Shown: piece by piece, positions 11,782 through 15,482 of the stretch
How the letters are laid out: every line of letters starts with the position of its first letter
Position numbering within the stretch: the first letter of the stretch is position 1
From: Glycocaulis alkaliphilus
GTDB taxonomy: Bacteria; Pseudomonadota; Alphaproteobacteria; Caulobacterales; Maricaulaceae
DNA length: 64,000 nt
Assembly (NCBI RefSeq): GCF_004000605.1
Contig: NZ_CP018911.1
Span: 744,001 to 808,000, forward strand
Direction: 5' to 3'
The notes under the pieces: generated by a model
What the model saw: only the letters and a program-made list of their open reading frames with translations
The model's database searches: none
Told to the model about the DNA's origin: nothing
Made by a program: the position numbers and the translations under genes

Positions 11782-13560
11782 ATGGATGATCAGGATCCAG
11801 ATAGCGGCGCCCCTGCGCTGGAGGCCGATGAGCCGGGACCGGCCCTGCCGGGCTTCGAGCCGCCGCCTGCCAGTGCCGCCTATCAGGTTCTGGCCCGCAA
11901 ATACCGCCCGCAGCGCTTTTCCGATCTCATCGGGCAGGACGCCATGGTGCGTACGCTGTCCCATGCCTTCCAGTCGGGCCGTATTGCGCAGGCCTATATG
12001 CTCACCGGCGTACGCGGGGTGGGCAAAACGACAACCGCGCGCCTCATCGCCCGCGCACTGAACTACGAATCGGACGAGCGCTCCGGCCCCAGCGTGGATA
12101 TTGATCCGCCGGGCCGGCATTGCGATGCCATTGCCCGCTCGGCCCATGTCGATGTGCTGGAGATGGACGCCGCTTCGCGCACTGGCGTCGGCGATATACG
12201 CGAAATTCTGGATGGCGTGCGCTACGCGCCCGTGTCGGCACCCTACAAGGTCTACATCATCGACGAAGTTCACATGCTGTCCAACAATGCGTTCAACGCA
12301 TTGCTGAAAACGCTCGAAGAGCCGCCGCCGCATGTGAAGTTCATCTTCGCGACGACCGAGATACGCAAAGTCCCGGTCACGGTGCTTAGCCGCTGTCAGC
12401 GCTTTGATCTGCGCCGCGTGCCGCGCGATGCGCTCAGCGCCCATCTGAAGCGGATATGCGATCTTGAGGGCGCGCAGGTTGAAGATGGCGGCCTCGACGC
12501 GATCGCCCGCGCTGCCGAAGGCTCGGTGCGCGACGCGCTCTCCCTGCTCGATCAGGCGATAGTTCAGGGCAGTGAGACAGGCCCGGTTCCCGCCTCGCAG
12601 GTGCGCGAGATGCTGGGCCTGGTGGACCGCTCACGCGTGCTCGACCTGTTGGATGCAGCTTTGACGGGCAAGGGCGAAGCGGCGCTCGCCGAGCTGGAAA
12701 GCCAGTACGCCGCCGGCGCTGATCCGCAAGTGCTGATGCGTGACCTGCTGGATTATCTGCACGCGATGAGCCGGGTGAAGGCAACAGGCGGCAAGGCGGA
12801 CCTTGCCGAGGCGCCGGAAACTGCCGCGCGCTTGCGTGAGCTGGCCGATACGCATTCGCTGGCCAGCCTTACCCGCCTCTGGAAAACGGCGCTCTCGGGG
12901 CTCGAGGATGTGCGCTCAGCGCCCGATCCGATGGCAGCCGTAGAGATGAGCGTGATCCGCCTGATGGCGGCGGCCAGCCTGCCCGGCCCGGAAGATGCCG
13001 CGCGGCTTATTGCGGCGCTGGAGGCCGGTGCGCCTGTGCCCGCGCCAGCAGGGCAGGCCAGTGGCGGACATGGCCCCGCAGGTCCGCAAGCCGAACATCA
13101 GCCCGCAGACGCGGAGCCTGAGCCGGCCACGAATTCCGACCCATCCAGCCTGGAAGACGTGATCGCCCTTCTGGACCGCGAGCGTGAAGCCTTGCTGCGC
13201 GATCAGGTGGAGCGCTTTGTGCGCCTTGTGTCCATCGGGCAGGGCAAGCTGGTATTTGAAGCGGTCAAGGGCGCCCCCGAAGACCTCGCCAGCCGTCTTG
13301 CGGGCTTCCTGCATGCGCAGACCGGCGCACGCTGGCTGGTGGACAGTCAGGGCCGCGCGCCGGGCGGTGAGACCATGCGCGAGCGCCGCCGCCGTGAGGC
13401 CGAGGCCTTGCGCGAACGCGCGCTTCGCGATCCGATGGTAGTGCGCGCCATGACGCTGTTTCCCGGCGCCGAGCTGGAAGCAGTGACGACGGTTGAGCCG
13501 GAGAACCCGCCTTCCCAGATGACGGACGCAGACACCCAGCGTCAGGAGCGCAAACCATGA
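11782..13560 (+). CDS. dnaX: DNA polymerase III subunits gamma and tau
   Basis: 592-residue clamp-loader ATPase. The Walker A motif is GVRGVGKTT, Walker B is YIIDEVHML, and the SRC motif lies in TVLSRCQRF. The usual four-cysteine zinc module between them is degenerate: only GRHCDAI remains, as in other alphaproteobacteria. The Pro/Ala-rich linker (about residues 420-460) leads into the tau-specific C-terminal domain. The start used is ATG at 11782 (MDDQDP). An in-frame ATG at 11734 is possible but adds a basic non-conserved stretch. The stop overlaps ybaB by 4 bases. No obvious slippery A6G heptamer was noticed in the linker. Confidence 0.95.
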   Translation: MDDQDPDSGAPALEADEPGPALPGFEPPPASAAYQVLARKYRPQRFSDLIGQDAMVRTLSHAFQSGRIAQAYMLTGVRGVGKTTTARLIARALNYESDERSGPSVDIDPPGRHCDAIARSAHVDVLEMDAASRTGVGDIREILDGVRYAPVSAPYKVYIIDEVHMLSNNAFNALLKTLEEPPPHVKFIFATTEIRKVPVTVLSRCQRFDLRRVPRDALSAHLKRICDLEGAQVEDGGLDAIARAAEGSVRDALSLLDQAIVQGSETGPVPASQVREMLGLVDRSRVLDLLDAALTGKGEAALAELESQYAAGADPQVLMRDLLDYLHAMSRVKATGGKADLAEAPETAARLRELADTHSLASLTRLWKTALSGLEDVRSAPDPMAAVEMSVIRLMAAASLPGPEDAARLIAALEAGAPVPAPAGQASGGHGPAGPQAEHQPADAEPEPATNSDPSSLEDVIALLDREREALLRDQVERFVRLVSIGQGKLVFEAVKGAPEDLASRLAGFLHAQTGARWLVDSQGRAPGGETMRERRRREAEALRERALRDPMVVRAMTLFPGAELEAVTTVEPENPPSQMTDADTQRQERKP

Positions 13561-13892
13561 AAGACCTCGCCGGCCTGATGAAGCAGGCCCAGGAAATGCA
13601 AAAGAAAATGGGCGAGGCGCAGGCCCGGCTGGACGCCGTGGAGGTGACAGGCGAGGCGGGTGCCGGTCTGGTGAAAATCACCACCACCGCCAAGGGCGAA
13701 CCGCGTAAAGTGTCCATCGACCCGTCACTCATTGACCCGTCAGAGCCGGAAATCCTTGAAGACCTGTTCCTTGCCGCGCTCGCCGATGCCAAGCGCAAGG
13801 CCGATGAGGCCCAGGCTAATGTTCTGCGCGATGCCGCGAGCGGTCTGGGCTTGCCGCCGGGCTTCGACATGCCGTTTGGAGTGAAATCCTGA
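13557..13892 (+). CDS. ybaB: YbaB/EbfC family nucleoid-associated protein
   Basis: 111 residues with the typical N-terminus MKDLAGLMKQAQEMQKKM. This helical dimerisation arm is followed by the central beta segment (VEVTGEAGAGLVKITTTAKGE) and a C-terminal helix. YbaB proteins bind DNA as tweezers-like dimers and are almost always encoded between dnaX and recR. Translationally coupled to dnaX (ATGA overlap). The normal next gene, recR, is displaced here by almost 1 kb of AT-rich DNA. Confidence 0.95.
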   Translation: MKDLAGLMKQAQEMQKKMGEAQARLDAVEVTGEAGAGLVKITTTAKGEPRKVSIDPSLIDPSEPEILEDLFLAALADAKRKADEAQANVLRDAASGLGLPPGFDMPFGVKS

Positions 13893-14865
13893 GAAGCTTG
13901 GGGATTCTATGGATAACAGAATTATTCTATATATCGATATACTTGGGTTTAGCGATATTGTAAATGAAGATAAAGGCCGAATCGTAAAACACGTCATAGA
14001 CATATTTAATGCAATGGATGAATCTCCAGCATTTGAACACGATATATTTTCTGTTTTGCAATTTTCTGACACATTAATAATTTATAGCAAAAACGCTCCC
14101 TGCTCTGACGATGAACAGCAGTACATGGTTGGGTATTTGTGCGAGTTTGCTCAGCATCTTCAGTATAAGCTGCTGTCGAGAAATGTGTTTTTCCGCGCGG
14201 TTCTCACCAAGGGTGATTTTTATGACGTCGCACCGGGAGATTCTGTACATACTTTCAAGAATATAAGGGCCTTCTGGGGATCAGCTCTTGTAGATGCAGC
14301 TGAAAAAGAAAAATCGATAAAGGCGATAGGTTTGTTTATCGATAATAAAAAAAATAATCATCGAAACTTGGTTTAAATTTTATTCATTTAAACAATGTGA
14401 AGGGTTGTTTTTCGTCGAATTGAATAAACAGCTTGAAAACTATTTTAATGAATGCCTTGGTTTATCATACGCGAGGTGCTCGATTCCCGCCGAGGGGAAT
14501 GAAAATTTGCTGGCTTATGAGTTTCTTTTTCTAAAAAGTGTTTATGATATGCGTGATTCCAATGGAACAGTTGGAGAAAAATATAAAAACACTTGGGATT
14601 TTTATTCAGAACAATATCCTGGCCTTTGCCAATGTTTGGTGGAGTCTGAATTTGATTTTGCACAAATTATACCAGGCGACTGGAATGGGATGTTTGATGC
14701 TATACGACGCGGTGAGGGGTATTTTGGTCAGTAGATACCAGCTTGCCCGTTGAATCCGCGTTAAAGTCAGCCAAACGCATTTTGATTCTCTGCCTTCAAT
14801 CCAAAAATAGCGGCCCTTTTCTTGGATTTCGTACCCGGTATCAAAATCTGTTTGGTTTAGCAGCG
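13893..14865. other. AT-rich insert between ybaB and recR
   Basis: Base composition drops sharply here from the roughly 63-65% GC of the neighbours, with runs such as TTTAAATTTTATTCATTTAAA. Codon use shifts to AAA, ATA and TTT. The insert separates genes that are normally adjacent and carries one split gene. No terminal inverted repeats, transposase or integrase were seen. The left edge is within 20 bases of the ybaB stop. The right edge lies between 14735 and the recR ribosome site, near the weak inverted repeat AATCCAA/TTGGATT (14798-14828). Confidence 0.75.
13909..14734 (+). pseudogene. Cyclase-homology-domain-like protein, split by a frameshift in an A8 tract
   Basis: The first frame (13909-14376, 155 residues) and the second (about 14354-14734) join into one protein of about 274 residues if one A of the A8 run at 14347-14354 is skipped. 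The joined frame then reads DNKK-IIIETWFKFYSF straight into FFVELNKQLENYF. The N-terminal half resembles class III nucleotidyl cyclase folds. YIDILGFS carries the first metal-type Asp (residue 10) and QFSDTLIIYS the second (residue 54), and FFRAVLTKGDFYD follows where cyclases have R-x-G-x-x-x-G. It is therefore either a decayed gene, a slippage-dependent gene or a sequencing error. Substrate and activity are unknown. The AT-rich composition indicates transfer. No ribosome site better than GGGATTCT precedes the ATG. Confidence 0.6.
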
Positions 14866-14879
14866 TGGAGCATCGTCCC

Positions 14880-15482
14880 ATGGCAGGCACGGCCGGCCCC
14901 GAAATCGAGAGGCTTATCCAGCTTCTGGCCAAGCTGCCGGGGCTTGGCCCGCGCTCTGCGCGCCGGGCTGCGCTGCATCTGATGAAAAAGCGTGAGGCGC
15001 TGATGGAGCCTCTGGCCGCCGCCATGGCCGAGGCAGCGGAGAAAATCCGCCCCTGCAGTATTTGCGGCAATCTGGACGTATCAGACCCGTGTACGGTCTG
15101 CCGCGATCCCAAGCGCGGCGACAGCGTGCTCTGTGTGGTCGAGACGGTAGGTGATCTCTGGGCGCTGGAGCGGGCAGGGGCCTTTGCCGGCAAATACCAT
15201 GTGCTGGGCGGGGTCCTGTCTGCGCTGGATGGCGTCGGTCCGGACGATCTCAATCTTGCCAGCCTGATCGAACGTGCGGGCAATGGATCGGTCAGCGAGG
15301 TGATCCTGGCGCTCAATGCCACGGTGGATGGCCAGACGACGGCCCATGTCATCGCTGACAGGCTCGCCCATACCGGCGTATCGATCACCTCGCTGGCGCG
15401 CGGCGTGCCGGTGGGCGGCGAGCTTGATTATCTTGATGACGGCACGCTGGCCGCCGCGTTCAGGTCACGGCGGCCAGCGTAA
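14880..15482 (+). CDS. recR: Recombination mediator protein RecR
   Basis: 200 residues, the standard RecR length. Works with RecF and RecO to load RecA on gapped DNA. The N-terminal helix-hairpin-helix ([16 protein letters not shown]) is followed by the four-cysteine zinc finger ([16 protein letters not shown]). The Toprim domain follows ([14 protein letters not shown]), then the C-terminal Walker B-like segment ([13 protein letters not shown]-type). ATG 14880 has TGGAG 9 bases upstream. A GTG at 14865 is the alternative. Because the insert separates it from ybaB, it probably depends on read-through or a new promoter. Confidence 0.95.

Follow-up and report, generated by a model that had tools for sequence, protein, structure and literature searches.

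The described proteins closest to the gene analysed here are the class III cyclases (PF00211; Rv1625c and the C2 domain of mammalian adenylyl cyclase), and PycC, the cyclase of the Pycsar system, which is adjoined by a TM or TIR/CNBD effector. In Pycsar cyclases the metal aspartates form the pairs D102/D146 and D62/D106, with a spacing of 44 residues (PMC11224242). The locus presented here lies in a stretch of 64,000 nt (hereafter the window) at positions 744001–808000 of a closed 3.02-Mb genome, where an AT-rich, cyclase-like gene (13909–14734) separates ybaB from recR. I estimate at roughly 0.6 the probability that an acquired cyclase-fold gene replaced a Fic gene at this site and was then frameshifted in an A8 tract, its ancestor having been one half of an antiphage pair with a protein named PDC-S32. 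The encoded protein shares a predicted fold with class III cyclases over residues 1–172, and its metal aspartates (D10/D54) are 44 residues apart, as in PycC. The cyclase fold is thus common to PycC and the window protein, and the homologues of the latter share the defence-island context of Pycsar. In contrast to the Pycsar arrangement, the neighbours of the window gene are ybaB and recR, and the partner of its homologues is PDC-S32.

The features of the locus are collected in Table 1. The coding sequence has a GC content of 0.37, against 0.63 for the whole window, which agrees with the sharp drop pointed out in an earlier, sequence-only reading of this DNA, and it is the sole stretch with a GC content below 0.50 in a scan of the 64 kb. 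Orthologues of ybaB are found in 6 of 6 genus genomes, the other five being 75–97% identical to the window copy. A repeat search revealed no clear repeats flanking the insert, those present being short and chance-like. There is no tRNA in the 64-kb window and no integrase marking the insertion event, and no sigma-70-like promoter was identified within 13500–15000.

Table 1. Features of the ybaB–recR interval and its flanks (window coordinates).
Feature	Position	Strand	Basis
ybaB (nucleoid-associated protein), left flank, intact	13557..13892	+	orthologues in genus
16-nt leader, GGGGA ahead of ATG; cyclase-like gene directly after ybaB stop	13893..13908	+	sequence
5' part of cyclase-like gene: 155-aa open frame with D10, D54, R96, G102 and transition-state-helix equivalent	13909..14376	+	frames, alignments
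A8 tract, frame shifts by one	14347..14354	+	sequence and homologue alignment
3' part of same gene in next frame, stop TAG 14732-14734	14355..14734	+	continuous homology to C-terminus of intact homologue
Fic gene stump, first ~17 codons MRLADFNADSTGKLVST, start codon 14780-14778	14731..14780	-	nucleotide alignment with congener G008 Fic
Former Fic upstream region / recR leader, common to G008	14781..14879	.	nucleotide alignment
recR, right flank, intact	14880..15482	+	sequence, orthologues

The sequence-only reading had described two frames that join at an A8 tract to give a protein of about 274 residues with aspartates at positions 10 and 54, and all of this holds. The tract is at exactly 14347–14354, and the read-through protein has 274 residues, includes D10 and D54, and aligns end to end with an intact 271-aa homologue (L023/L026) at 40% identity, with no gap at the joint. 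The second frame has a possible start of its own (TTG, 14405), as might be expected of two separate genes that are adjacent by chance; however, this explanation is scarcely credible, as that one homologue covers both frames, which rules out a two-gene origin, although the two parts may still be translated separately at present. In homologues L025, L026 and L027 there is no A-run at the position of the tract, and the longest A-run of the gene is 4–5. Taken together, the gap-free spanning homologue and these uninterrupted relatives indicate that the gene was once a single frame, which is frameshifted in the present assembly.

It had also been suggested that the gene might be expressed by slippage at the A8 run, which would yield a short and a long product and could act as a regulated switch or in phase variation. 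The run is a possible slippage tract, and both frames are open and can be joined. However, the slippery tract is not conserved, the three homologues named above read straight through, and it falls in a poorly conserved linker of the protein. When the bases of the gene are shuffled, an A8 or T8 run moreover arises in ~10% of cases, and shuffling of its codons yields A8 in ~9% (8.7–10% overall), so that the tract needs no special explanation. I consider slippage very improbable, and this part of the sequence-only reading is not supported.

A more serious rival is that the frameshift arose in sequencing or assembly, in which case the gene would be intact in the cell, would be transcribed together with ybaB, which precedes it, and would encode a class III cyclase-fold protein of full length. 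The frameshift is read from one assembly and one homopolymer, and the break in the frame relative to the intact homologues counts only if the A8 base call is correct. Homopolymers are a classic site of sequencing error, and here just one base is affected, within the longest homopolymer that the window contains. The remainder of the gene is undamaged, with the invariant residues and the C-terminus retained, which would fit a functional gene too. On the other hand, A8 runs mutate readily in living cells as well, and genes that stand alone, with no partner, often decay. A base-call error is the main rival, possible without being the favoured explanation. The most likely state of the window copy, solo and frameshifted as it is, is one without function, and it is probably a young pseudogene; given a one-base frameshift, the unshifted frame is expected to give the 155-aa product only.

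No significant family was identified in Pfam, NCBIfam or PADLOC for the joined or the split protein, nor for ten members of its family. PADLOC, whose models may or may not include PycC, gave no match for the window protein and nine relatives. PF00211 scores 12.8 bits (E 0.09) on the first half, below its gathering score of 21.9, and does not match the joined protein. The sole library family matched significantly is phrog_23933, a phage/prophage protein family of unknown function (E 1.4e-5), which aligns with residues 2–106 and hence covers the first half only. Using a profile of the family, hhalign gave probabilities of 82–90% over residues 4–149 with canonical class III cyclases, six of which were taken from related genomes for this comparison. 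The family profile also aligns with Rv1625c in the PDB set (E 0.004), over the core.

An AlphaFold model, generated from 7 sequences (pTM 0.62), matches adenylyl cyclase in Foldseek with a probability of 1.00 and E 7e-5; its matches are class III cyclases throughout, and EaPycC (8jsf) is among them. In a second structure comparison Z is ~10–11.4 over residues 1–172, and 50 of 50 rows are cyclases. Since the mean pLDDT of the model is 57, which is low confidence, this fold evidence is of moderate strength. Beyond the cyclase fold the window protein has ~100 extra C-terminal residues that class III cyclases do not possess, mostly helical. D10 and D54 are conserved without exception in the ten family rows and align with the canonical metal aspartates. 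In contrast, the residue aligned with the transition-state Asn is V128 here (V, I or L in all family rows), and the one aligned with the transition-state Arg is E132 (variable in the other rows). With these residues at the two positions, ordinary cyclase catalysis is doubtful. The cyclase link proposed earlier therefore stands for the fold and the metal aspartates, and not for catalysis; assignment of the window protein to the class III cyclase fold is supported by the predicted model.

No homologue was found in the 136 other genomes of the family that were searched. A phylum-wide draw matched 4 of 398 genomes, the window's own included, with one full-length relative. Four homologue loci are found in other alphaproteobacteria, one of them in the same genome as that full-length relative, and the nearest relatives belong to other alphaproteobacterial families. 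A tblastn search of plasmids and phages gave none for the window protein or its homologue, and viral-contig scans gave no close relative, with two distant relatives in the scan using query P0005. The foreign composition, the absence from the rest of the family, the empty site in three congeners (see below) and the nearest relatives lying elsewhere all argue for a horizontal gain. Horizontal acquisition, as put forward in the sequence-only reading, is thus supported by these sequence comparisons.

The insertion site was compared within the genus and the wider family. In 3 of 6 genus genomes it is empty, with a ybaB–recR spacing of 79 bp (G012), 92 bp (G011) and 99 bp (G009), against 987 bp in the window genome, and two further congeners have other cargo. 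In one of these (G008) the interval is 1257 bp and includes a Fic gene in the reverse orientation. In the other (G010, L020:2858-6853) an MmeI-like Type IIG restriction-methyltransferase is found in an interval of 3.7 kb. In the wider family the spacing is 18–33 bp in genus g12, and 0.9–5 kb in other genera, mostly with enzyme-like genes. The statement that dnaX-ybaB-recR is normally uninterrupted is therefore correct for some genomes, where the interval is short or empty, but not for other congeners and genera with genes in between. The variety of genes that other genera have here indicates that ybaB–recR is a generally permissive junction, and by these comparisons it is insertion-prone in the genus. 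Exchange may proceed by homologous recombination via the conserved flanking genes. In several other genera (L029-L048) the junction includes gamma-glutamyltransferase-like (identified by eye), acyltransferase and other genes.

The DNA following the cyclase-like gene retains a trace of a previous occupant. From 14731 to 14864/14879 the window matches the 5' part of the Fic gene of G008 and the DNA upstream of it at ~91% identity, 14731–14780 still coding for the first ~17 Fic residues, and this homology starts where the cyclase-like gene has its stop codon. The feature had earlier been delimited as 13893–14865; its coding part stands, but ends at 14734, and by the alignment 14731–14879 is older DNA. 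The simplest history is that the Fic gene was in place first, and that most of it was then replaced by the cyclase-like gene. Reverse-oriented Fic genes with similar N-termini are found at ybaB–recR in two genera, at L018 (G008:C1:121000-125200) and L033 (G028:C6:52100-53700).

In the four homologue loci, the cyclase-like gene is directly downstream of a 249-aa gene matching the PADLOC candidate PDC-S32 (E 1e-74), and the two genes overlap by 4 nt in L025, L027 and L028. There is no PADLOC model for this cyclase-like partner of PDC-S32. The neighbourhoods of L025 and L027 include AbiEi/AbiEii, a TIR protein, and a short pAgo with its REase partner; HipA/HipB-like genes are found in L023 and L028, and an ArdC-like gene in L023 (read by eye). 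In the window genome PDC-S32 was not detected, with the same model that finds it in G171, G475 and G503, and the window copy directly follows ybaB instead. The suggestion that the gene is defence-related thus applies to the neighbourhoods of the homologues, whereas nothing beside the window copy points to defence, except the character of the site. From neighbourhood and fold, the favoured role for the intact homologues is to bind a nucleotide or metal and to serve, together with PDC-S32, as sensor or signal-maker against phages. More tentatively, the divergent, Asn-less class III cyclase-fold protein and the all-helical PDC-S32 could form an undescribed two-gene antiphage module, of which the window copy, if intact in the cell, would be a solo or orphan sensor, lodged beside recR in a site where defence genes are exchanged.

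To return to the preferred reading, a Fic gene would have occupied the ybaB–recR site first, and a single acquired cyclase-fold gene would then have entered between ybaB and recR, replacing Fic save for its N-terminal stump. The ancestral protein may have bound nucleotide and metal, and have provided sensing or signalling in a two-gene antiphage module with PDC-S32. In the absence of PDC-S32 a copy on its own would have become useless and started to decay. Since its arrival, a one-base frameshift in the A8 tract would have interrupted the gene, leaving what is probably a young pseudogene. On its own the window copy is probably a dead foreign gene; more useful are the uncharacterised family and the swapping site to which it leads. 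Members of this cyclase-fold family, for which Pfam, NCBIfam and PADLOC have no model, adjoin a candidate antiphage protein in several genomes. At the ybaB–recR junction the single cargo differs between related strains (Fic, Type IIG restriction or cyclase-like), and one replacement has left a footprint that can still be read.

The PDC-S32/cyclase-like pair itself seems to come apart often in the genomes compared: the PDC-S32 partner has an early stop in L026, and in L069 PDC-S32 is present without the cyclase-like gene alongside. In Yoonia sediminilitoris (L028:6001-6354), the cyclase-like gene is cut after approximately residue 105, next to an intact PDC-S32 partner. PDC-S32 was not found in plasmids, and a search of one literature collection found no publication on it. 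The protein is predicted to be all-helical; its model has a pLDDT of 53, which is low confidence, and the fold matches are weak. A weak resemblance to HEPN domains is seen in the C-terminal half (2hsb, TM 0.62 of target, E 2.8), and on this model PDC-S32 is perhaps HEPN-like. HEPN nucleases have the motif R-x4-6-H; at the place of this motif, the PDC-S32 proteins (L025:5255-6004 and relatives) possess QN-x4-H.
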